NCBI RefSeq assembly: GCF_001007935.1
Contig: NZ_CP011451.1
Span: 1,922,001 to 1,986,000 of the forward strand
Length of the DNA: 64,000 bases
Direction of reading: 5' to 3'
DNA from: Nitrosomonas communis
GTDB taxonomy: Bacteria > Pseudomonadota > Gammaproteobacteria > Burkholderiales > Nitrosomonadaceae
Shown in pieces: positions 9,987-21,458 of the stretch (position 1 is its first letter; each line of letters begins with the position of its first letter). The notes beneath the pieces are model-generated. The model saw only the letters and a list, made by a program, of their open reading frames with translations, was not told the origin of the DNA and did no database searches. Position numbers and translations under genes: made by a program.

Positions 9987-10012
9987 TTCTACTTTTCTAG
10001 CAAAGAACGCAC

Positions 10013-10465
10013 ATGAAGATTCCATTATTTTTGCATTTACTGGGTGTAGTCATTTGGGTGGGTGGGATGTTTTTTGCTTATATGGTGTTACGTCCAACAG
10101 CTGCTCAGTTGCTTGAACCTCCTTTGCGATTAAAGCTGTGGCATGGTGTTTTTAGCCGGTTTTTTCCATGGGTATTTTTATCAGTAGGGCTCATCCTGGC
10201 AAGCGGCCTTTATATGATCATGCAAATGGGAGGCTTTATGGCCGTACGTCTGTACATCCACCTCATGTTTGCGCTAGGTCTAGTGATGATGCTCATTTTT
10301 ATTTATGTGTTTTTCTCGACATTCAAGAAACTTAACTATCATATTACCAGAGAAGAATGGTCATCTGCAGGGATTGTACTAGGACAAATTCGCTTGTTAA
10401 TCGGAATTAATCTTATACTGGGAATGGTCACCATTACCGTTGCAGTTTTAGGTGGATCAACTTAG
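10013..10465 (+). CDS. Small CopD-like integral membrane protein
   Basis: This 150-aa protein has four predicted membrane helices, starting with FLHLLGVVIWVGGMFFAYMV. This resembles the N-terminus of the CopD/COG5615 group of predicted heme- or copper-associated membrane proteins, with His8 in the first helix and other histidines near membrane borders (WHGVF, YIHLM). The family is poorly defined experimentally, so the role is unknown. It lies 26 bp downstream of rnhB and could be co-transcribed. Confidence 0.6.
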   Translation: MKIPLFLHLLGVVIWVGGMFFAYMVLRPTAAQLLEPPLRLKLWHGVFSRFFPWVFLSVGLILASGLYMIMQMGGFMAVRLYIHLMFALGLVMMLIFIYVFFSTFKKLNYHITREEWSSAGIVLGQIRLLIGINLILGMVTITVAVLGGST

Positions 10466-10549
10466 CTTGACCGATCGTGAGGATGTACTAAAAACCTTTT
10501 TGTGTTTTTGTACTCCATTATTAAAGAGAATCAATATAGGTGAAAAAAG

Positions 10550-11035
10550 ATGCGTATAGAAAAGGATACCGTGGTATCGCTGCAATACTATAAATTGTCT
10601 AATTTAGACGGTGAGGTTATGGAAGAATCCACAACACCAGTCAGTTATCTGCATGGTGGTTATGGAGGAATGTTCCCGAGTGTAGAGGAGGCGCTACAAG
10701 GAAAGGAAGCAGGATATCAACTTTCCTTAGCAATGGAGCCGGAAGAAACTTTTGGGGAATATGACAGTGAATTGATTCACATAGAACCGCGCAGTGCTTT
10801 CCCAGATACTGTTGAGGTAGGGATGCAGTTCGAAGGCGGAGAAGAGAATTCCGATGATGTGATGATTTATACGGTTACCGATGTCACTGATGATATTGTT
10901 GTCGTTGATGGCAATCATCCGCTCGCTGGCATGGCTTTGCAATTTGAATGTACCGTAATGGAAGTGCGCGCTGCTACCCATGATGAGCTTTCACATGGTC
11001 ATGTGCATGGGCCGCATGGTCATCATGAACACTAA
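10550..11035 (+). CDS. slyD: FKBP-type peptidyl-prolyl isomerase, SlyD-like
   Basis: SlyD proteins are cytoplasmic prolyl isomerases with an inserted chaperone flap and a histidine-rich tail that binds nickel and other metals. The N-terminus (IEKDTVVSLQYYKLSNLDGE), the YLHGGYGGMFPSVEEALQGK segment and ETFGEYDSELIHIEPRSAFP fit the family. The tail HGHVHGPHGHHEH gives seven histidines in the last 13 residues. At 161 aa it is slightly shorter than E. coli SlyD. A metal-sensing or nickel-delivery role is inferred from the tail only. Confidence 0.9.
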   Translation: MRIEKDTVVSLQYYKLSNLDGEVMEESTTPVSYLHGGYGGMFPSVEEALQGKEAGYQLSLAMEPEETFGEYDSELIHIEPRSAFPDTVEVGMQFEGGEENSDDVMIYTVTDVTDDIVVVDGNHPLAGMALQFECTVMEVRAATHDELSHGHVHGPHGHHEH

Positions 11036-11049
11036 TAAACCCTAAAGGC

Positions 11050-11175
11050 TGTTGAAAAACTATCTTGTAGTCGCTGTGGTGTTAAGAACAGGCTCAAAAT
11101 TACTGATTTATCAGGTATAAACTTTTTTGCCTGTTTGTTCCTATCATCTATTGCTATAAATACGTTTTTCAACAG
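11050..11175. repeat. 126-bp element with 12-bp perfect terminal inverted repeats
   Basis: The segment starts CTGTTGAAAAAC and ends GTTTTTCAACAG, a perfect 12-bp inverted repeat enclosing about 100 bp with no ORF. The terminal sequence is of the kind seen at ends of some insertion sequences, so it could be a miniature non-autonomous element, or a large hairpin terminator after slyD. It directly abuts a copy of the 102-bp dispersed repeat. I see no second copy in this window. Confidence 0.6.
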
Positions 11176-11182
11176 ATTGCTA

Positions 11183-11284
11183 ATGCCATTTCCAAATCAA
11201 ACATGACACGAAGGCGAGCCGCAGACAGTATAATAATAGGGTAAGGTGAAGCCGACAAAATCAGGTTTGACTTAGAAATGGAAT
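11183..11284 (-). repeat. Dispersed 102-bp inverted-repeat element, copy 2 (reverse)
   Basis: The element runs from ATGCCATTTCCAAATCAAA to TTGACTTAGAAATGGAAT and matches the family in reverse orientation (GAAGGCGAGCCGCAGACAG then GGTGAAGCCGACAAA). It lies between the convergent genes slyD and mutS, next to the 126-bp inverted-repeat element. Confidence 0.9.
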
Positions 11285-11307
11285 AAAGACTTCTCAGGTC
11301 AAAACGC

Positions 11308-13896
11308 TCAATCTTTATTCAGCATCGATTTCAATGTATAGAGATGTTCCAGTGCTTCCTTTGGACTTAATTCATCTGGTAGAAGTTTACTCAAATGGCT
11401 AAAAATGGGATGAAATGTTTCAGAAAATTGTATAGTGGTATCGGTTGGTTCTGAAAATAAATCAAGTTGTGGGTTGTTGCTGATATTTTCCTGTTCTAGT
11501 TTAGTCAAGATTTTTTGAGCTGCCTTGATTACTGGAGCAGGTACACCTGCCAGCGCTGCCACATGCAGACCGTAGCTCTGACTGGCAGGTCCTTCATTAA
11601 CCGTATGCAGAAAGACAATGTGTTGTTTATGTTCAACAGCTCCCAGATGAACATTGGCCGCTTGTTCAAATTCTTCACCTAATCTGGTCAGTTCGAAATA
11701 ATGCGTCGCAAACAATGTATAACTCTGGTTCTTAGTCAGTAGATAACGGGCAATGGCAAAAGCCAGTGCCAAACCATCAAAGGTAGAGGTTCCCCGCCCA
11801 ATTTCATCGACCAGCACCAGGCTCTGGCTGGTAGCATTGCGGAGGATATTGGCCATTTCGGTCATTTCAACCATAAAGGTGGATCTTCCACCGGCCAGAT
11901 CATCCGATGCGCCAATGCGAGTAAAGATTTGATCAATCGGCCCAATACGTGCATGTGTTGCAGGTACAAAACTGCCGCAGTGAGCAAGTAACGCTATCAA
12001 GGCCGTTTGTCGCATATAAGTGGATTTTCCTCCCATATTGGGGCCTGTGATGATAAGCATTTGTCGCCTGCCAGTTTCACCTGCTCCAAGATGCGCATCA
12101 TTGCTAATATAATGATTGACCTGACTTTCTACCACAGGGTGGCGACCGGCTTGAATTTCTATGACCGCTTCCTCCGTGAAGACCGGGGTAGTATAGTTGA
12201 GTAGTTGAGCTCGCTCTGCGAAGGTACTCAGTACATCTATTTCTGCCACACTCTGCGCTATGTTTTGTAAATGGCTGGAATAGGCACTAAGTTTTACCAG
12301 CAAGGTCTCATATAAATATTTTTCTCTGGCAAGTGCTTGATCTCTGGCTGTCAGCGCTTTGTTTTCAAAAGCCTGTAGCTCAGGCGTGACATACCGTTCT
12401 GCATTTTTCAAAGTTTGTCTTCTACGGTAATCGGATGGAATTTTATTACTATGTACATGTGTGATCTCGATATAAAAACCATGTACCCGGTTATATTCCA
12501 CTTTGAGATTAGGGATGCCTGTGCGTGTTTTTTCGCGGGCTTCCAGTTGCAGCAGAAATTCGCCACAGTTATTTTGTAAGGCTCGTAATTCATCCAGTTC
12601 AGCATCGTAGCCATCAGCGATGACTCCTCCTTCGCGTAGCAGCGTACTCGGCTCGGGAAGTAATGCTTGCTGCAATAGCTCTACCAGAGAATTCTCCGGT
12701 ATCATGGCATGTGCTAACAGGGTGATGTGCTCACTGGCAATATTGGTTGTCATGGCTACAATTTCAGGCAAAGCGATCAGGCTATCCCGCAGGCCGGAAA
12801 GATCGCGCGGCCGAGCTGATTTGAGTGCAATGCGCGCAGCGATGCGTTCGATATCGGCAATACGCTTGAGATGTGCCCTGATGCTAATATATGGCACCGT
12901 TATCCCAGAAGTTTCCATCAGAGCAGAGACGCTGCCAAGCCGATACTGCAGAATCCGGTAATCTCGTAGTGGATGATGCAGCCAATGTCGTAACAGTCTG
13001 CTACCCATAGTCGTTGAGCATGTATCCAGTAACGACATCAAGGTAGGTGAAGTTTCTCCGCGTAAAGTCTCAGAAATTTCTAAATTACGGCGGGTAGCAG
13101 CATCCATACGGATGTAGGTTCCTTCACGTTCAACCTGGATTGTTTTGATATGTGTAACATCTGTTCCCTGGGTGAGGCGGACATATTCGAGCAGCGCTCC
13201 AGCAGCCTGCAGCGCAGCATGCAAATCATCGCAGCCAAAACCAGCAAGATCATGGGTGCCAAGTAGCTTAGTCAGGCTGCGAGTAGCACTGTTGTAGTCG
13301 AATTGCCAAGCAGGCAGTTGTTTGGTATGCTTTGATCCATCAAGTGTTAGCGACGCATCCAACGATTCAGGTAAAAGAATTTCGGCAGGCTGCAACCGCT
13401 CTAGCTCACTCATTAGATTATTTGGAGAAGTTTCCAGCATTCGCAGCTGGCCAGCAGCTAGATTGAGCCATGCCAAACCCAACGTTAATTTGTGGGAAGC
13501 TAACGCGAGCACGATACAGTCACGCTTATCTTCGAGCAAAGTGGCATCGGTCAGTGTGCCGGGTGTGATGATACGTATTACCTTACGTTCTACGGGTCCC
13601 TTGGTTGTAGTTGGGTCGCCGACTTGCTCGCAAATAGCAACCGACTCACCTAGTTTGACGAGTTTGGCCAGGTATTGATCAGCGGCATGATAAGGTACCC
13701 CGGCCATCTTGATGGGCTCACCTGCGGATGTGCCACGCTGTGTCAGTGTGATATCGAGCAACTTAACTGCTTTCTCAGCATCTTCAAAAAATAGCTCATA
13801 AAAATCTCCCATGCGGTAAAAGAGCAGCTTGTCAGTATGTTGCGCTTTGATGCGCAAGTACTGCTGCATCATGGGAGTATGATCTTTTAGTGCCAT
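11308..13896 (-). CDS. mutS: DNA mismatch repair protein MutS
   Basis: MutS recognises base mismatches and small loops and recruits MutL. The 862-aa protein has the N-terminal mismatch-binding motif ([17 protein letters not shown], containing the F-x-E wedge), connector and lever regions. The ATPase domain has Walker [15 protein letters not shown] and Walker [17 protein letters not shown], then [10 protein letters not shown]. Length and domain order are those of MutS1. The gene faces slyD and is followed (upstream on the + axis) by repeats. Confidence 0.97.
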
Positions 13897-14014
13897 AAAG
13901 TTGACGGAATATTAATCTGACAATATATTTTAGCAGATGAGGCTATTGCACGAGTTAAGCCAATGCGATAGAGGATTTGCTTTGCTAAGCATACGAAGAT
14001 GTACGCTAATGCGT

Positions 14015-14116
14015 ATTCCATGTCTAAATCAAAATTGACTTTGCAGCTTTACCTTGCCGTATTATGGATGTTGTCTGCGGCCGGCCTTCGCGTCATGTTT
14101 GATTTAGGCATGAAAC
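14015..14116 (+). repeat. Dispersed 102-bp inverted-repeat element, copy 3 (forward)
   Basis: It starts ATTCCATGTCTAAATCAAA and ends GATTTAGGCATGAAAC, so the right end is diverged. The core CAGCTTTACCTTGCCGTATT and CGCGTCATGTTTGATT match the family. It lies between the decarboxylase gene and mutS. Confidence 0.87.
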
Positions 14117-14120
14117 TAAA

Positions 14121-14250
14121 GGTGCCTCTGAAAATTCAAAGCTCTTAACAAGGCAAGGCGAAAACAAAAAATGTTGAAATAGCCTATAGCTGATAGGTAA
14201 TGAAACGTTTTTTGTCAACCACGTAAGGATATATGAATTTTAGAGGTGTC
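14121..14250. repeat. About 125-bp second inverted-repeat element
   Basis: The left end has CCTCTGAAAATTC (14125-14137) and the right end has GAATTTTAGAGG (14235-14246), inverted repeats differing by one inserted base. The interior contains no ORF. It abuts repeat copy 3 just as the 126-bp element abuts copy 2, and it has a similar length but unrelated ends. It may be a miniature transposable element; only one copy is visible here. Confidence 0.5.
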
Positions 14251-14406
14251 CTTAATACTGTATTGGATTGATTTAACCAGCTAATAGCTGACTGATTACT
14301 GGCTAAACTTATCGAAAGGAAATAGAAATTCAACAAGTCTAGCCAGGATGAAGCATATTCCTTACTGCATTGTGGTAATTATTATTGAATAATATATAAA
14401 GCCAAA

Positions 14407-15585
14407 CTACAAAACCATGACATCAGGTAACGGGAAGCCATTGAAATTGCTGGCGTAGGCTGTGGTATAGGCGCCGGCGTTAGGAATAAAGATGAAATCA
14501 CCTTCTTGGATATCTTCTGGCAATAGCTCGTCATGCATCAACACATCAACAGAATCACAGGTTGGACCGGCAATGGACCATGGCGTACTACTACCTGTGC
14601 GGTTAGTCAAAATCTCATAACGTAGCCCTTCACTAACTTCGATAATACCGCCAAATATACCTGCATCCCAATACATCCAGCGCTTGCCATTGCGTGTGGC
14701 CGTGCCCACAACTCTGCAAACAAAGCATGCAGAGTCCGATACGAGATACCGACCTGGCTCTGCCATGATGCGAATTTCTTCCGGAAGATCAGCGATTGCA
14801 GCATTGATGACATCTGCGATCACCTCGATAGAAGGAATTGGTTTAACATGACGTACAGGATAACCACCACCGATATTGAGTAAGCGAGGCCTTAACCCTG
14901 CCTGCCTCATGTCAGCGAAAACATTTCTCGCGCGTTCAATACCGACTCGCCAGTTTTGCGGATTACGGCATTGCGAACCTACATGAAAGGTGACACCCGC
15001 GAGATCAGCATTCAATGAGACCGCTTCGTTAATAATTGCTTTGATGTCGGCAAGGTGCGTGCCAAATTTTCCTGCCAGCGGCCAGTCACTGCCGATGTTG
15101 GGTGTATCGATGCGCAAATATAACTTTGCATCTGGCTTGACACTGACGATTTTACGCAGCTCTTCAACACTGTCCAGAACATACCATTCTACACCTTTAG
15201 ATGCGGCGTATTCCAGGTATTGACGTGATTTCATCGGGTTACTGTAGTATATTTCCGCTGCAGGAACACCCAGACTAATTAACAGATCCAGTTCGGCAAT
15301 GGACGCAATTTCAAATCCAGAACCTTCTTCTATTAGGGTTTTTAATACACGCGAATCCGGATTAGCTTTGGCTGCATAATGCGGATGAACACGTGGCATG
15401 GCAGCTTTAAAGCGGCGAATTTTATTACGGATAATATTGCTGTCGACCAACAAGAAAGGCCTGTTGTAACCTTTTTTGAGTGCGTCTTCAACGTGGGAAA
15501 GATCTAAACTAATCTCAGGATGGGTGTCAAAGATAACTTCATTTTCAGTTCTCTTTTGCACAGTGGCGGTACGTATTTTCATCAT
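14407..15585 (-). CDS. Group III (alanine-racemase-fold) ornithine/lysine decarboxylase
   Basis: This PLP enzyme probably decarboxylates ornithine to putrescine. The 392-aa length and motifs place it in the eukaryotic-type ornithine/lysine decarboxylase group: PHYAAKANPD with the PLP lysine at residue 73, GVTFHVGSQCRNPQNW, the glycine loop LNIGGGYPVRH, MAEPGRYLVSDSA and GPTCDSVDVLMHDE with the active-site Cys-Asp pair. Lysine or diaminopimelate specificity cannot be excluded; the short size argues against LysA. The ATG at 15585 is preceded by AGGAG. A short ORF with an even stronger ribosome site ends 19 bp upstream, suggesting translational control. Confidence 0.88.
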   Translation of the reverse strand: MMKIRTATVQKRTENEVIFDTHPEISLDLSHVEDALKKGYNRPFLLVDSNIIRNKIRRFKAAMPRVHPHYAAKANPDSRVLKTLIEEGSGFEIASIAELDLLISLGVPAAEIYYSNPMKSRQYLEYAASKGVEWYVLDSVEELRKIVSVKPDAKLYLRIDTPNIGSDWPLAGKFGTHLADIKAIINEAVSLNADLAGVTFHVGSQCRNPQNWRVGIERARNVFADMRQAGLRPRLLNIGGGYPVRHVKPIPSIEVIADVINAAIADLPEEIRIMAEPGRYLVSDSACFVCRVVGTATRNGKRWMYWDAGIFGGIIEVSEGLRYEILTNRTGSSTPWSIAGPTCDSVDVLMHDELLPEDIQEGDFIFIPNAGAYTTAYASNFNGFPLPDVMVL

Positions 15586-15604
15586 TAACTCCTATCAAAA
15601 GCCG

Positions 15605-15670
15605 CTACGTTTCTGGGATATGAATATGAACCAAATCAACCTTAGCAAAAGAATTCGCTTTACTTTTCAT
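15605..15670 (-). CDS. Candidate 21-residue leader peptide upstream of the decarboxylase
   Basis: On the - strand an ATG at 15668-15670 is preceded by a near-perfect AAGGAGGTCATC ribosome site and opens a 21-codon frame. It begins MKSKANSFAKVDLV, ends HIHIPET and stops at 15605-15607. It lies inside the transcript predicted from the TATAAT promoter at 15722-15727, and 19 bp remain before the decarboxylase ATG. The peptide has no signal or membrane features. Polyamine-enzyme genes in other bacteria (for example E. coli speF with its leader speFL) use such upstream ORFs; a similar role here is inference. Confidence 0.6.
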   Translation of the reverse strand: MKSKANSFAKVDLVHIHIPET

Positions 15671-15721
15671 GATGACCTCCTTATTGCTTCTTGGCGCTAA
15701 TAAAATGACTAAAGGGTAGGA

Positions 15722-15749
15722 ATTATAGGCTGGATTTCTGTGGAATCAA
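15722..15749 (-). promoter_or_regulatory. Predicted sigma-70 promoter of leader ORF and decarboxylase
   Basis: Reading the - strand, TTGATT (15749-15744) is followed by 16 bp and a perfect TATAAT (15727-15722). Transcription would begin near 15715, leaving about 45 nt before the leader ORF start. No other promoter-like pair of this quality is seen in the upstream interval. Confidence 0.6.
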
Positions 15750-16105
15750 GCATTTTTTTAATGTAGAAAAAAATGGTTTATTCTAAAAATAGATACATGA
15801 AATCATGAGGCTGTGGCATAAGTTATTTTTGCCTTTTAGGTCTTCAAATAGACTAAATTGTGTTTGAGACAATAAAAATAATTTATTGTTCAAGACAAAT
15901 CACCTTAAGTGGTAAATCGCATCAAATTTTGCTGTACTCAGCAGGTTGGCATCCAGCGGCTAAGAGGAGAGAAAGAGGAGATATAGGGTGGGATAGAGCA
16001 TTTGCAGATAAGAGATTTTAAGGAAATTTAGGCGAGAGGAGAGCGCTAGGCAACGAGGCAATATGCTAAGTTGCTGACATCTCTTTAAATTTTTCTGAAG
16101 GTTAT
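15750..16105. other. Gene-free AT-rich interval
   Basis: I find no credible coding frame or RNA gene here. The sequence contains the purine-rich stretch GAGGAGAGAAAGAGGAGATA near 15965 and AT-rich flanks, and it ends at a dispersed repeat. Confidence 0.5.
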
Positions 16106-16209
16106 AATTCCATTTCCAAATCAAAAATGACGCGTAGGGGAACCGTACACAGTATCAATAATACGGCAAGGTGAAGCCGACAAAGTTAGTTTTGATTTAG
16201 AAAGGGGAT
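16106..16209 (-). repeat. Dispersed repeat element, copy 4 (reverse)
   Basis: The ends are ATTCCATTTCCAAATCAAA and TTTTGATTTAGAAAGGGGAT. The core reads GGGGAACCGTACACAGTATC and CGGCAAGGTGAAGCCGACAAA, so one half is diverged from the usual GGCGAGCCGCAGACAG. It lies upstream of rdgC. Confidence 0.88.
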
Positions 16210-16460
16210 AGCTTGGCATACCATTAGTTGAACCAAAATCGGCAATCGCCTGTACAATTCTCCGCACATTTAGCGTACCCCAAAAGAGCGATGCTTATAA
16301 TTAGCTCTTTTGTACGAGCATCTTTAGGATTTCACTTCTACCGGGTGAAGCGCAAAGAACCGCGCAGCAATCAACGACACAATTCAAGAAAAATCGGCGA
16401 GAAACGAGCGAGCACTTAAAATCGTGATTCGTCTACAAATAGATTTATAGAGGTATCTTT

Positions 16461-17348
16461 ATGTGGTTTAAGAATTTACAAATTTATCGTATCACTGATT
16501 GGAAGCTTATGCCTGAAGAGCTGGAAGAGTTATTAGCCAGACGCACTCTGCAAGCCTGCTTAAGCATGGAAATGCAAAGCCTGGGCTGGATTCCACCAGG
16601 CATGGAAGAAACCCGCCTTGTGTATGCGCGAGGCCAGCAAATGCTGATTGCGCTCGGATCTGAAAAAAAATTGTTGCCTGCTTCCGTCGTGAATCAGCGT
16701 GCCAAGGAACGTGCTGTGGAAATGGAAGCGCAGCAGGGCTATCCAGTTGGCCGTAAACAGATGAAAGAAATCAAAGAAGCAGCCTTATACGAGCTACTAC
16801 CGCGCGCGTTTGTCGTGCGGCAAAAAAGCCATGCCTGGATTGATCCGGTAGACGGCTGGATTATTATTGATAGCTCGAATATTGCCAAGGCAGATACCTT
16901 TGCTGAAACTCTCCTGAAAACGATCCCCACGCTTCTACTCAAGCGCATCAAGACTAATTTGACTCCTGCTTCAGCCATGACCCGCTGGCTATCAGGCGAT
17001 GAGTTACCTCATGCGTTTACTATCGATAGCGATAGCGTTTTCCGTAGCAGAGAAGATAAAAAAGTCTCGGTCAGCTATCAGCGCCATCCACTCGATTCAG
17101 ATGAAATTACCAGACATGTCCGAGCAGGCAAAGAAGTTACCAAACAGGCAATGGTATGGGAAAACAACCTTTCCTTTGTGCTGGATGAAAACCTGCAAAT
17201 CAAGCGGCTCACCCTGCTCGATATCGAAAAAGAACCCGCTGAATCAGCGGAAGAGCAATTCGATAGCAATTTCTTCCTTATGACCGAACAATTGAAACAG
17301 TTATTACCTGATTTAATCGATGCATTAGGCGGGGAAGTGGTTGAGTGA
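16461..17348 (+). CDS. rdgC: Recombination-associated protein RdgC
   Basis: RdgC is a ring-shaped dimeric DNA-binding protein that modulates RecA filament function; it is found in beta- and gammaproteobacteria. The 295-aa protein starts MWFKNLQIYRIT, and has LQACLSMEMQSLGWIPP, LLPASVVNQRAKERAVEME and GYPVGRKQMKEIKEAALYEL, all family landmarks, and normal length. It stands alone between a dispersed repeat and an insertion-sequence remnant. A hairpin follows 54 bp after the stop. Confidence 0.93.
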   Translation: MWFKNLQIYRITDWKLMPEELEELLARRTLQACLSMEMQSLGWIPPGMEETRLVYARGQQMLIALGSEKKLLPASVVNQRAKERAVEMEAQQGYPVGRKQMKEIKEAALYELLPRAFVVRQKSHAWIDPVDGWIIIDSSNIAKADTFAETLLKTIPTLLLKRIKTNLTPASAMTRWLSGDELPHAFTIDSDSVFRSREDKKVSVSYQRHPLDSDEITRHVRAGKEVTKQAMVWENNLSFVLDENLQIKRLTLLDIEKEPAESAEEQFDSNFFLMTEQLKQLLPDLIDALGGEVVE

Positions 17349-17402
17349 CAAGCTGGTTGGAAATTTAAGTGGTAATTTTAATGCTAATACATTACCCCAT
17401 AA

Positions 17403-17424
17403 GGTCCGATTAATAAATCGGACC
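17403..17424 (+). terminator. Putative terminator hairpin after rdgC
   Basis: GGTCCGATT, a 4-nt loop AATA, then AATCGGACC form a perfect 9-bp stem. A second weak hairpin (CCAGTA and TACTGG) overlaps its end, followed by T-rich sequence. There is no immediate U run, so termination is plausible rather than certain. Confidence 0.45.
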
Positions 17425-17496
17425 AGTACCATTTTACTGGATTGCTTCTTATTTTTTAAATTTAGCTGTTATATAGAAACATGGATTCGAATTCGA

Positions 17497-18488
17497 AGTG
17501 CACTTCGGAAGGCTGATTGGTAGAATTTATCGACACCCCGAGGAATACCTCATGCGGAGTTCTGAATCCAAGTACTTTGCATGGTCAGTGATTGAGATTA
17601 TCGACTGCCCACTGCACTTGTTCTTCGGTAACACCAGTCAATCTCATCTTGGGGAAATACCGTTGTAGTAGCCCATTGCTGTTCTCATTCAATCCCTTCT
17701 CCCATGAATGATTGGGGGGTGCAAAGTCAAAGTAGATGTCTGCTTCCAATTCTTGAGCGATGATTTCATGTCCAGCAAGTTCTCTTCTTTTGTCGAATGT
17801 TACCGCGTAGCATTTGTGCTTGTGAGGGCGTAGCAGACTATTGATCTTTACTAATACTCCCTGCGCATGTTTCGCTGGCAATTGACCTTCCAGGATATAA
17901 CGCGATTTCCTTTTTGCCAAGGTAACCAGTACTCCTTGATGGTTCTTGCCGATCACCGTATCGCCTTCCCAATCTTCAATACGAGTTTTATGCTCGACGA
18001 TCTCGGGTCGTTCATCAATGCTGACTCGGTTGCGAATAGTGCCACATCGTTCTTGCCCACTTGCATGGCGCTTGCGTCGCGGTTTCTGGCAGCGTAGATG
18101 TCTTCACAAATCACCTCCTGCCAGTTTGTCGGCGTATAGGTGCTGATATAGTTTCGTGGCTGATTGACAATTCATTTTCCAGTTTAAGTCGGGCGGATGC
18201 CTGTTCAGGACTACTCATATCCTGTCGAATCATCTTCTCTACCTTATTCCAGTTTTCTCGGCTAAATCCCCTGCCCTGGGCTTTCTGCCTTGCACGTTTA
18301 TCTGGTAATTCCTGTACCCGCTTTGGACGCCAACCTCGCTATCCCCTCTTGCGCCTGAGTTCTCGTGAGAGGGTAGATTTGTTCACGCCTACTTCATTCG
18401 CTATCTCACTTTGCTTAAATCCTGCTTTTCGTAACCCATAAATCTGATAGCGTTACTCACAGGTAAGCTGATGATAGTGCGGATTAAA
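17497..18488 (-). pseudogene. IS30-family transposase, inactivated
   Basis: Translating the - strand gives the N-terminal helix-turn-helix region (YHQLTCE, a TAA stop at 18453-18455, then RYQIYGLRKAGFKQ), a middle region with KLAGGDL followed by TGA and RHLRCQK, and RNRVSIDERPEIVE then DWEGDTVIGKNHQG. The longest open piece (17585-17956, 123 aa) has the last DDE parts, FAPPNHSWEKGLNENSNGLL. It then meets a TGA at 17585-17587 where relatives read arginine, and beyond it the frame continues as VLGFRTPHEVF. At least three nonsense changes plus frame breaks mean that no active enzyme is made. Confidence 0.85.
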
Positions 18489-18502
18489 CTATGAAGTGCA
18501 AC
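17497..18502 (-). mobile_element. Decayed IS30-family insertion sequence
   Basis: The about 1-kb segment carries a broken IS30-type transposase on the - strand. Near both ends the octamer TGCACTTC appears in inverted orientation (within 17499-17506 and as its complement at 18493-18500), a possible remnant of terminal repeats. I cannot identify a target duplication. It separates rdgC from a GC-richer gene pair and may have taken part in that insertion. Confidence 0.65.
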
Positions 18503-18653
18503 GCTCGACCAGATCAATACTTGAGCGGGTGTCAAGTCAAGATCAGCTGTTTAAATGTTAACGAGCTCAGCTTTTTTATGTATAATCCATTGGTAAGTAA
18601 TTAATCTGTAAGTTAGAAATAGCAGTGTTGCCGACTATTATAGGAGCACGTGT

Positions 18654-19295
18654 ATGAAACTTCTTGCAGTTGCTTTCGCTACTTATCTTTTTGTAACACC
18701 CATTCTTGGCCTCTCTCAGACTACCCGTTATGATGCAGAGCGCGCATTGCCAGCAACGCCTGCACCAATCAAGAGCATTCTTGCTGTACGTCCCTTCACA
18801 CTTGAAACACCTTACCCATACACCTGGAGCAAGGAACGTTTCATGGTGTCTACGGGTGTTCTCATCGTTCTTGAGGTCGATCCCGCATACGTCGTTCCGC
18901 GCAACAAGCTGGAACCGGTGCTCTACGCGGGCAATGTTCCGGTGCAGCGACTGAACCACGGCAACGTCTCCGGTCGCGTCATAGGTATTGTGCCAGGCAG
19001 CATCGATCTCACCAACGCACTTATTTGGTTCGGTTCGCCGGATCTGCCGGAGCGCATCACGGCAAGTAGAGTCGAATCCGAGCGTGTACGTGCCGAAAGA
19101 GCCGGGATACGCCCATTCCCGGAAGCAAGGATTGCCAGTATTTCGCATCCACCGGTCGTTGCGAAGGATCTTGCTGCGCTGCTGCGCGATATTGGCGCCG
19201 AACTCATCCTTGAGTACTCCCCGCAGGAAAATGAACTTGCGGAGTCTTGGCGCCTACCCACAGCGAAGGTGCCGCCGAAGAACAAGTCCAATTAA
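18654..19295 (+). CDS. Secreted protein of unknown function
   Basis: The 213-aa product begins with a signal peptide (MKLLAVAFATYLFVTPILGLS) and is otherwise soluble. I do not recognise a family. The central part (FMVSTGVLIVLEVDPAYVVP, VLYAGNVPVQRLN, SGRVIGIVPG) suggests a beta-rich periplasmic domain. GC content is visibly higher than in the flanking genes, a feature shared with the next gene 48 bp downstream, so the two probably arrived together. AGGAG lies about 10 bp before the ATG. Confidence 0.65.
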   Translation: MKLLAVAFATYLFVTPILGLSQTTRYDAERALPATPAPIKSILAVRPFTLETPYPYTWSKERFMVSTGVLIVLEVDPAYVVPRNKLEPVLYAGNVPVQRLNHGNVSGRVIGIVPGSIDLTNALIWFGSPDLPERITASRVESERVRAERAGIRPFPEARIASISHPPVVAKDLAALLRDIGAELILEYSPQENELAESWRLPTAKVPPKNKSN

Positions 19296-19343
19296 CAACA
19301 AACGTCTTTCGGATATGAGCATTCGATATGGGGAGGTATAATT

Positions 19344-21458
19344 ATGAACAAGCACCTTTTGGGGCTTAAGGTCAAGTTCGTCGCCTTCAGCCTGCTGTTA
19401 CCGCTGTCCGGGGCAGCGGCGATCACGGAAACCGAACTCGCCGGCAATCCCCTTGCGCAATACCCATTCTTCGAATACGTGCGCGCGTTTAACGTCGACG
19501 CACCGGTGAACGTCGCGATCGATCCGACGCGCTTCCCCGCCATCGTCGGCGCCACCTGCGGCGTCTATGTCGTCAACCACCAGAACGCGTCCGACTGGGC
19601 TGCGAATCCCGCGCTCGTCGACGTGACACCCGGCGGAATGCAGACGCACACGTTCAGTGCAGGAACGATTCAGGCGAATACCATTGAAGTAGCCGCGGCC
19701 TCCACATTGAATGCCAACGCCGGAGAGGGCCTCGGCGTACCCTACGACATCGTGCTTGACTGCGATCAAAACGGATCTTTAAGCGATGGCGACTATATCG
19801 ACGGCCTAAGCGGCGAAGCCGGGTTCTACATGGTATCTGATACCACAATGGCAGGGCCGTATGCCGTTACCGAACTGGTTTATAACCTTGACTCCGCCGT
19901 CGCCGCGGACTTCGGCATTCCGGGCAACAAGCTCGGCGAAGACCTCTACTTTCCCACTAACATTGCCACAATGGGAAGACTGCCTCTCGTCATCATCAGC
20001 CGTGGTAACGGCCATAATTTCCGCTGGTACGACCATATTGGAAATCACCTTGCCTCCTATGGCTACGTGGTGATGAGCCATGATAACAATACGCAACCTG
20101 GTCCAGAGTTCGCCGCGACCACGACACTCGGCCACACCGACGCATTTATCGATCAGGTGGAAGCAGGCGCGATCGCTGACGGTGCGCTCGCCGGTCATAT
20201 TGACGCGCGGCGCATCGTATGGATCGGCCACAGTCGCGGCGCCGAAGGGGTGGCGATCGCCTACCACCGCCTCTTCGACGGTACCGCCACGCCGACTCAC
20301 TACGGCCGTAGTGACATCCGGCTGATCAGCAGCATGCTACCGACGGACTTCAACGGTAGTGAGGTCGCTAATCCGCACGACGCCAACTATCACTTGTGGA
20401 CGGCCTCTGGCGATGCGGACGTAGATGGCTCGGCAGGGAATGAGTGTAGCGATGACGGCGTCAATTTCCTTGAGCGGTGCCAAACCTTTCACTTGGTTGA
20501 CCGCGCCACAGGCTATAAGCAGTCGACGGTCGTGCAGGGAACTGGGCACGCCTGGTTTCATAACGGCGGCGACGCTTCCTCGTCTTCTTGGTTCACCGGC
20601 CCTTGCCCGATTGGTCAAACCAATACTCATCTCATCCTGCTGGGATATCTCCTACCGCTCGTTAAACACTACGTTGAGGGGAACATTCCCGCGCTCGATT
20701 TCTTGACGCGTCAGTACGAGTCTTTCCATCCAATCGGTGTGCCGACAGACGACCCGTGCATCGTCGTCACTCACGAATACAGAAACGGCGCAGCGGACGG
20801 CAATTTCATCATTGATGATTACCAAACGCAGCCCGAAATCAACGTAAGCAGTTCTGGTGCAGCGGTGGCGTTCGACGTCGAAAACTTAACCGAAGGTCGC
20901 CTTGACGACAACAATTTTGATTTCGACTGGGATGCGTCGGATCCTTTCAACGGCGCCACACAAGCTGGCGCCACCGATAGTCTCACCACGCGTTCCGACA
21001 ATAGCCGCGGCGTCGTGTTCGACTGGACGGACGCAGACCATTTCTACGAATGGCAAGTGCCCGCGGGTAGTAATGATTTCACGCGCTTCAAGTTTCTGTC
21101 GTTCCGCGGCGCACAGGGCACGCAGCACCCGAACACTGTGGCCGAGCTCGGCGACCTCACCTTCACCGTCACGTTACGCGACAGTGCAGGTGTAGTGAGC
21201 CACATCAACATCGGTGCTTATGGTGGCGGGCTCGAGGAGCCTTATCAGCGCGACGGGGGGTGGCATAACGAAATGGAAACCGTCCGCCTGCGCACGACGG
21301 ATTTCGCCAACAACGGTACTGGCATCAATCTCACTAACATTGTCGCGGTACGGTTTAATCTAGGCCCGTCATTCGGGTCGAGCAAAGGCCGCATTGTCAT
21401 CGACGATCTGATGCTCACCAATGATCAGCCGCCGAATTCGCTTGCGGCCATTGAATAA
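19344..21458 (+). CDS. Secreted alpha/beta hydrolase with C-terminal jelly-roll-like region
   Basis: The 704-aa protein has a signal peptide (cut near GAAA, residue 26) and an alpha/beta-hydrolase core around residues 175-450. LPLVIISRGNGHNFRWYDHI contributes the oxyanion region, IVWIGHSRGAEG has the nucleophile Ser297, Asp357 (ASGDADVDG) is a candidate acid, and His402 lies in QGTGHAWFHNGG. This resembles the PAF-acetylhydrolase/cutinase-like esterases. Residues about 480-695 form an acidic beta-rich region (VAFDVENLTEGRLDD to SSKGRIVIDDLML) like a carbohydrate-binding or sugar-lectin fold. Substrate is unknown. GC and codon use differ from the neighbours, suggesting transfer. Confidence 0.72.
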   Translation: MNKHLLGLKVKFVAFSLLLPLSGAAAITETELAGNPLAQYPFFEYVRAFNVDAPVNVAIDPTRFPAIVGATCGVYVVNHQNASDWAANPALVDVTPGGMQTHTFSAGTIQANTIEVAAASTLNANAGEGLGVPYDIVLDCDQNGSLSDGDYIDGLSGEAGFYMVSDTTMAGPYAVTELVYNLDSAVAADFGIPGNKLGEDLYFPTNIATMGRLPLVIISRGNGHNFRWYDHIGNHLASYGYVVMSHDNNTQPGPEFAATTTLGHTDAFIDQVEAGAIADGALAGHIDARRIVWIGHSRGAEGVAIAYHRLFDGTATPTHYGRSDIRLISSMLPTDFNGSEVANPHDANYHLWTASGDADVDGSAGNECSDDGVNFLERCQTFHLVDRATGYKQSTVVQGTGHAWFHNGGDASSSSWFTGPCPIGQTNTHLILLGYLLPLVKHYVEGNIPALDFLTRQYESFHPIGVPTDDPCIVVTHEYRNGAADGNFIIDDYQTQPEINVSSSGAAVAFDVENLTEGRLDDNNFDFDWDASDPFNGATQAGATDSLTTRSDNSRGVVFDWTDADHFYEWQVPAGSNDFTRFKFLSFRGAQGTQHPNTVAELGDLTFTVTLRDSAGVVSHINIGAYGGGLEEPYQRDGGWHNEMETVRLRTTDFANNGTGINLTNIVAVRFNLGPSFGSSKGRIVIDDLMLTNDQPPNSLAAIE

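Follow-up and report, generated by a model that had tools for sequence, protein, structure and literature searches.

A conserved 21-codon leader upstream of the ornithine decarboxylase gene of Nitrosomonas communis and its relatives: a candidate regulatory nascent peptide

The ornithine/lysine decarboxylase gene (here called the ODC gene) of Nitrosomonas communis is preceded by a short open reading frame that is real and under strong protein-level selection. From comparison of sequences we consider it probable, at roughly 0.6, that this leader encodes a cis-acting regulatory nascent peptide, one that would slow RF1-dependent release at its own UAG stop codon and thereby gate the ODC start. That the leader is translated, that termination is slowed, which way ODC expression responds and which ligand acts are all matters that we infer. 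Ornithine or a polyamine, as substrate or product in the pathway, would most likely be the signal, judging from the nature of the target gene and by analogy, ODC being the enzyme that makes the polyamine putrescine.

The window, that is, the whole stretch of 64,000 nucleotides that was analysed, belongs to a genome consisting of a single contig of 4.07 Mb, and the features of the leader and its target are collected in Table 1. A preliminary description of this DNA had reported a 21-codon ORF with a strong ribosome site 19 bp before the decarboxylase, and our coordinates and the site TAAGGAGGTCATC agree with it; the 19 nt from the leader stop to the ODC ATG (15585) contain AGGAG. The same description had placed a consensus promoter upstream. 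The site lies 51 nt before the leader ATG and fits the consensus at 10 of 12 positions, and TATAAT is found 33-58 nt 5' of the leader ATG in 79 of the 80 related loci introduced below, but a promoter scan returned 6 such sites where shuffled sequence gave 4.9 on average, and the promoter-like site by itself is not above chance. Terminator-like sites were listed elsewhere in positions 14800-17400, with none between the promoter and the ODC start. The DNA pattern of the leader's C-terminus occurs a single time in its own genome, and no Pfam family was matched by the leader peptide.

Table 1. Features of the leader and the ODC gene, in positions of the window
Feature	Position	Strand	Remarks
Promoter-like site TTGATT-16-TATAAT of the leader-ODC transcript	15722..15749	-	10/12 matches; predicted
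Leader ribosome site TAAGGAGGTCATC	15671..15683	-	Directly 5' of the leader ATG
Leader ORF	15605..15670	-	21 codons + UAG (ATG 15670-15668, stop TAG 15607-15605); encodes MKSKANSFAKVDLVHIHIPET
Conserved C-terminal segment H-I-P-E-T, last codons ACG-UAG	15605..15622	-	Residue and codon conservation
Shine-Dalgarno AGGAG of the ODC gene	15589..15593	-	11 nt past the leader stop
Ornithine/lysine decarboxylase gene, 392 codons	14407..15585	-	Pfam and PDB comparison

The decarboxylase carries PF02784 and PF00278 (Pfam; ornithine/DAP/arginine decarboxylase family), and its nearest solved relatives are the lysine/ornithine decarboxylase 2plj and human ODC. Since its NCBIfam matches all fall under the curated cut-offs, with lysA as the top match, the name ODC rests on the PDB comparison. 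The nearest named ODCs among the best 80 of 113 relatives are those of Nitrosomonas sp. Nm34 (99%) and N. communis Nm44 (96%). The unit lies between mutS, downstream on the same strand (11308-13896), and the divergent rdgC (16461-17348), neither of which, to our knowledge, concerns polyamines.

A scan of one genome per species yielded 113 relatives of the ODC, of which the best 80 were kept; their loci come mostly from Nitrosomonas, Nitrosospira and Nitrosovibrio, and seven are labelled only above family rank. The leader was sought in each as the last ACN-TAG before the ODC with an in-frame ATG, lengths of 17-27 codons being preferred and "none" being a possible outcome. In all 80 of these best 80 of 113 loci the leader ORF is exactly 21 codons long and ends P-[E/V]-T-UAG. 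Pro19 and Thr21 are invariant (80/80), H17 is present in 78 and I18 in 73, while position 20 is Glu in 50 and Val in 30; nearer the start, S3 is found in 54 and N6 in 57 of the 64 distinct leader ORFs. The sequence GGAGGTCATC stands directly 5' of the leader ATG in 69 of the 80 loci. Among the eleven others, three show a variant of the site, and eight (L100, L108, L109, L111-L115) have lost the site and have a largely different N-terminus, with the C-terminal IP[EV]T kept.

Merging of identical ORF DNAs left the 64 distinct sequences that were used for entropy and pN/pS. Mean entropy is 1.16 at third codon positions versus 0.56 and 0.78 at the other two. Across distance bins, pN/pS in the leader frame is 0.16-0.38, and 0.87-1.43 in the shifted frames; for 30 disjoint closest pairs the leader gives 0.26 (105.5 differences at 396 synonymous sites, 97.5 at 1404 nonsynonymous sites), and the shifted frames give 1.31 and 1.07. 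In the same 30 pairs, pN/pS is 0.39 in codons 2-11 versus 0.13 in codons 12-21. The excess of synonymous change and the low value in codons 12-21 indicate that the frame is protein-coding and that constraint is strongest at its end. Conservation is thus anchored at the proposed arrest point, as it is in arrest leader peptides, with a low C-terminal pN/pS and an ending that is kept while length varies between 13 and 24 codons in the wider sample considered below. The preliminary description had suggested a regulatory leader peptide and had left room for a frame that is unconserved in relatives and changes as readily at nonsynonymous as at synonymous sites. Comparison of the upstream regions gives the reverse picture, with the peptide conserved at all 80 of the best 80 of 113 ODC loci, 21 codons in every case and a pN/pS of 0.26, and conservation and selection on the frame support the suggestion well. 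An ORF arising by chance was considered separately and is ruled out by the fixed length, the codon-wise pattern of substitution and the family-wide conservation.

Constraint extends below the level of amino acids at the very end of the leader. The stop is TAG in all 80 leaders, whereas the ODC genes of the same loci end in TAA (44), TAG (19) or TGA (17), one of these ODC stops being unreliable because locus L116 breaks off after 44 codons; among 197 large ORFs without overlap, taken from 400 kb of this genome, 31 have TAG as their stop, and in 6 of the 31 it is TAGC. The codon for Thr21 is ACG in 76 and ACA in 4 of the 80 leaders. Six threonine columns of the ODC that are kept in at least 79 of 80 sequences have all four codons mixed in each, with none above 51%. 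The base after the leader TAG is C in 70 loci, T in 9 and A in 1. There is an exception to UAG in a genome of another genus of the family (G278), where the leader ends ACG-TAA, and outside the family ACC replaces ACG in 6 of 23 leaders and C follows TAG in only 11 of 23; these stop- and last-codon counts are not phylogenetically independent. UAG is read by RF1 alone, and the termination context includes both the P-site codon and the base that follows the stop. A finished protein would not need a fixed UAG and a fixed ACG, so the constraint on the stop and last codons points to involvement of the terminating ribosome as well as the peptide.

The spacing of the two genes is compact. An in-frame ODC ATG occurs 16-30 nt past the UAG in all 80 loci (the ODC start was read as the next ATG, which is in the ODC frame in 79; L073 has its in-frame ATG at 22 nt), and the core of the Shine-Dalgarno sequence begins 7-13 nt past the UAG in 77 of 80. 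By toeprint geometry, roughly ten nt downstream are covered when UAG occupies the A site, and thus a ribosome halted at the leader stop would overlie or abut the ODC ribosome site. The leader frame stands in the three possible phases to the ODC frame in 48, 17 and 15 of the 80 loci, and with no fixed phase between them stop-codon readthrough into the ODC was rejected. Pairing between the leader start and the ODC start was compared with that obtained when partners are swapped between species: the native mean is -7.86 and the swapped mean -7.52 kcal/mol, the native value being reached in 60 of 2000 permutations, a figure that relatedness inflates. L040 and L041 have almost no such complementarity. 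In the N. europaea group (L043, L045, L046 and L055), the leader start region (TCATGAGA...) is complementary to the ODC start region (...TCTCATGA) over 9-11 pairs, with duplex energies of -12.0 to -15.8 kcal/mol, and other clades are without such pairing.

Taken as a mechanism, the leader ORF would be the first cistron of the ODC mRNA, and its very strong ribosome site would load ribosomes onto it. When the Thr codon ACG occupies the P site and UAG the A site, the nascent D-L-V-N/H-I-H-I-P-E/V-T would slow release by RF1, and the held ribosome would lie over or directly against the ODC Shine-Dalgarno sequence 7-13 nt downstream, such that its dwell time would set the frequency of ODC initiation. 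Ornithine or a polyamine would most likely be what changes that dwell time and so provides feedback; that either of them holds the ribosome and lowers ODC is a tentative proposal, and we would sooner doubt it than rely on it. The concentration of peptide selection at the C-terminus, the constraint on UAG and the last codon and the compact geometry speak for arrest; no conserved fold was found.

The distribution of the leader across the order was surveyed with an HMM of 31 distinct peptides run on 399 genomes, in 68 of which an ODC was found at E up to 1e-100; the DNA 5' of the ODC was read in 44 fetched stretches and at the HMM loci. Among these 68 genomes, 36 have the leader, 30 are without its ending (scored as absent by eye, from ORF lists and sequences) and 2 are unreadable, G157 being masked and G065 ending at a contig edge. 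The carriers comprise 13 of 13 genomes in the family itself and 23 in nine other families. With 30 of 68 ODC-bearing genomes lacking the ending, the device must be dispensable. Twenty-four HMM matches have an E of 0.03 or less, and 23 of them are followed directly by the ODC, the exception being G123 (L139); when all 30 HMM loci were fetched the ODC was present at 24 and absent at six weak ones. The possibility that the same leader stands before other genes was rejected on the strength of those 23 of 24.

Outside the family, where the search pattern required the Pro and Thr and left the stop codon free, the 23 leaders are 13-24 codons long when the start with a ribosome site is taken (one alternative start gives 28), and the stop is TAG in all 23. 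Their endings read D-L-x-N-[LVI]-H-I-P-V-T in most, LDLPET or LDIPVT in family f11 and QH[IT]PVT in f51, and M-T-S and R5 are recurrent at their N-termini. Leaders of family f37 have 21, 21, 20, 19, 16 and 13 codons and keep the ending; the motif is thus anchored to the stop.

The start of the leader can also be found apart from its end. In family f22, five of the six ODC loci (L152, L153, L155, L156 and L157) keep AAGGAGGTCATCATGAC and a start of the form MT[GR]xR[NK]Y without the ending, two of them stopping after 7 codons and three running for 37-38 codons without the motif. The sixth, L154 (G057), has no such leader, its promoter, a GGGGAGG site and the ODC start being close together, and the leader appears to have been lost altogether. 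Two f9 loci and the f18 locus L166, which has one change in the site, keep only the leader start, while another f18 locus, L160, has a seemingly degenerate copy, WHLSVT followed by CGT at the stop position. Exact copies of the 15-mer AGGAGGTCATCATGA occur in 15 of 18 genomes, once in each and always at the ODC leader. The start region is therefore retained even where the peptide ending is gone; either it is a relic or strong ribosome loading is useful in itself, and in f22 the start region may have a use of its own. The arrest model does not account for the genomes of f22, f9 and f18 in which the strong ribosome site and the first codons have been kept and the HIPVT ending has not.

The main rivals to arrest are translational coupling without sensing and a small protein that acts in trans. 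Under coupling, a heavily loaded leader would deliver or clear ribosomes for the ODC by termination and re-initiation, with no sensing by the peptide. The very strong leader ribosome site suits this, as do the short distance from UAG to the ODC ATG (16-30 nt at all 80 loci), the ability of the leader and ODC starts to pair in some clades and the survival of ribosome site and start in some genomes without the peptide ending. A coupling device could have any C-terminus, however, and it is in codons 12-21 that constraint is highest; some species also lack the pairing of starts, which overall improves only slightly on that of swapped partners (the 60 of 2000 permutations above). We regard coupling without sensing as unlikely. 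The small-protein alternative, in which the 21-residue product is, for example, an ODC-binding regulator whose gene simply leads the operon, we hold to be quite unlikely. It would account for the selection on amino acids and the fixed length, for the partial conservation of the first codons (S3, N6, and the M-T-S and R5 that recur outside the family) and for the company of the ODC at every locus with the ending (the 23 of 24 HMM matches above). Against it, the N-terminus shrinks to leave 16 and 13 codons within one family while the end stays intact, and synonymous-level constraint on the last and stop codons is needless for a finished protein. Arrest and a functional small protein are nonetheless not separable from sequence alone.

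Two further explanations would place the regulation in the RNA. A riboswitch or protein site overlapping the ORF, with the peptide a by-product, would suit the conservation of AGGAGGTCATCATGA and of the ACGUAG end at the nucleotide level, but the substitution pattern is codon-wise and the search for structure, by Rfam, RNAalifold and subclade folds, gave nothing consistent. Rfam returned no match at gathering score in window positions 10000-20000, and at permissive E-values it returned weak, unrelated matches only, both in the leader region (E up to 10) and in 10 of the 44 upstream stretches (E up to 1). RNAalifold on 62 leaders gave no conserved structure; single leader sequences fold no better than shuffles (mean z of +1.02, with a home-made shuffler), and the folds of five subclades disagree, with 0, 1, 0, 4 and 5 pairs showing double changes. 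An RNA element is in our judgement very improbable. Attenuation of the classical type, in which regulatory codons report on tRNA charging, is barely credible: the leader is indeed a short ORF before an amino-acid-related gene, but it has no run of one codon kind and no pathway-related codon fixed by position, no terminator-like site stands between promoter and ODC start, and only 16-30 nt separate the two ORFs. The repeated regulatory codons and terminator hairpin of a trp-type attenuator were thus not found, while the short ORF with a conserved peptide before a candidate regulated gene, by which arrest leaders are recognized, was.

That nascent peptides can act in the way proposed is clear from the precedents SpeFL, TnaC and MAGDIS. 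SpeFL is a sensor of L-ornithine that inhibits RF1-mediated release (PMC8429421), and the Salmonella SpeFL/ORF34 system is described as exerting control through Rho and RNA structures (PMC6386406). Like the present leader, SpeFL stands 5' of an ornithine decarboxylase gene, and the E. coli copy also ends in TAG, but in E. coli K-12 it has 34 residues and lies 257 nt before speF, compared with 21 residues and 19 nt here, and E. coli SpeF belongs to PF01276 (the OKR_DC_1 family), unlike the PF02784/PF00278 decarboxylase of the window. The preliminary description had already judged the peptide unlike SpeFL; consistent with this, BLASTP of SpeFL without its first Met against the window peptide gave no alignment at E up to 100, a comparison of two short peptides that has low power at such length. 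TnaC is a 24-residue leader on which termination is arrested at the stop codon under the control of a small molecule (PMC8429421). It differs in using UGA and RF2, in responding to tryptophan, in having Pro24 as its last residue, where the present leader has its Pro third from the end and UAG, and in controlling transcription via Rho.

The odc1 uORF of the alpha-proteobacteria encodes a conserved 11-residue peptide before genes annotated as ornithine decarboxylase, with a UUG start two nt before the main UUG start, inside a conserved hairpin with a pseudoknot (PMC8632094). Both are short, conserved peptides of fixed length before ODC genes, but ours is a separate AUG ORF of 21 codons, 16-30 nt before the ODC ATG, with no conserved fold found. 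The speF element RF00518 is likewise a conserved 5' leader of alpha-proteobacterial COG0019 ODC genes (PMC1273637); it is a large folded RNA, whereas Rfam scans of the window at 10000-20000, of the leader region and of 10 of the 44 upstream stretches give no match to it here. In a sample of 369 genomes from the class to which Nitrosomonas and its order belong, only one ODC outside the order was found at E 1e-100. A simple pattern applied to 30 regions upstream of alpha-proteobacterial ODC genes, with full 1500-nt flanks assumed, found no odc1-type UUG uORF and no HIPVT-like ending, a weak negative given that the script also missed odc1 itself, which is known from the alpha-proteobacteria; 5 of the 30 regions contain, in one frame or another, a string that ends in T-stop and has Pro shortly ahead of it, in one case an APVT directly after another stop.

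Nearest in logic is the MAGDIS uORF of animal AMD1, where ribosomes pause at the stop under high spermidine and block downstream initiation (PMC13025110). It too serves a gene of the polyamine pathway, by the same logic as that proposed here and with a compatible geometry, but it is a eukaryotic hexapeptide that acts on scanning ribosomes before a different enzyme, there is no shared sequence, and the pause is only a proposed one in our case. That a nascent-peptide uORF works in a beta-proteobacterium is shown by CruR (DUF2946) of Bordetella (PMC9426467), although CruR is longer, has a copper sensor of the CXXC kind and combines a RAPP elongation arrest with termination that depends on Rho. 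We have filed the present leader as a putative new family within the regulatory nascent peptides, a member of neither SpeFL nor odc1. Whether it further constitutes a beta-proteobacterial family of polyamine-sensing termination-arrest leaders, in which the ribosome at UAG would mask the ODC start and the identity of the last sense codon and stop codon would be part of the sensor, as a counterpart of MAGDIS in logic that evolved apart from SpeFL and the odc1 uORF, is speculative, and the odds may lie against it.

The open-access literature gave us no description of this leader or of such a control point in ammonia oxidisers. If the proposal is true, leader peptides would have been recruited to bacterial ODC genes more than once (SpeFL, odc1 and the present leader), and the layout would be about the simplest possible, no RNA switch or terminator having been found between sensor and target. 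The leader would then offer a small system for the effects of polyamines or ornithine on RF1 termination, would allow one to ask why the stop and last sense codon stay fixed beyond the amino acids, and would mark a point at which ammonia-oxidising bacteria control their nitrogen metabolism.

A separate observation concerns decarboxylase genes outside the window. A cluster of partial decarboxylase matches lies at G000:C1:1842414-1847030 (L002, L003, L004 and L007), covering query residues 33-231 with an internal TAG, 232-391, 162-227 and 233-391. The cluster looks like two tandem decarboxylase genes, each split into two ORFs.
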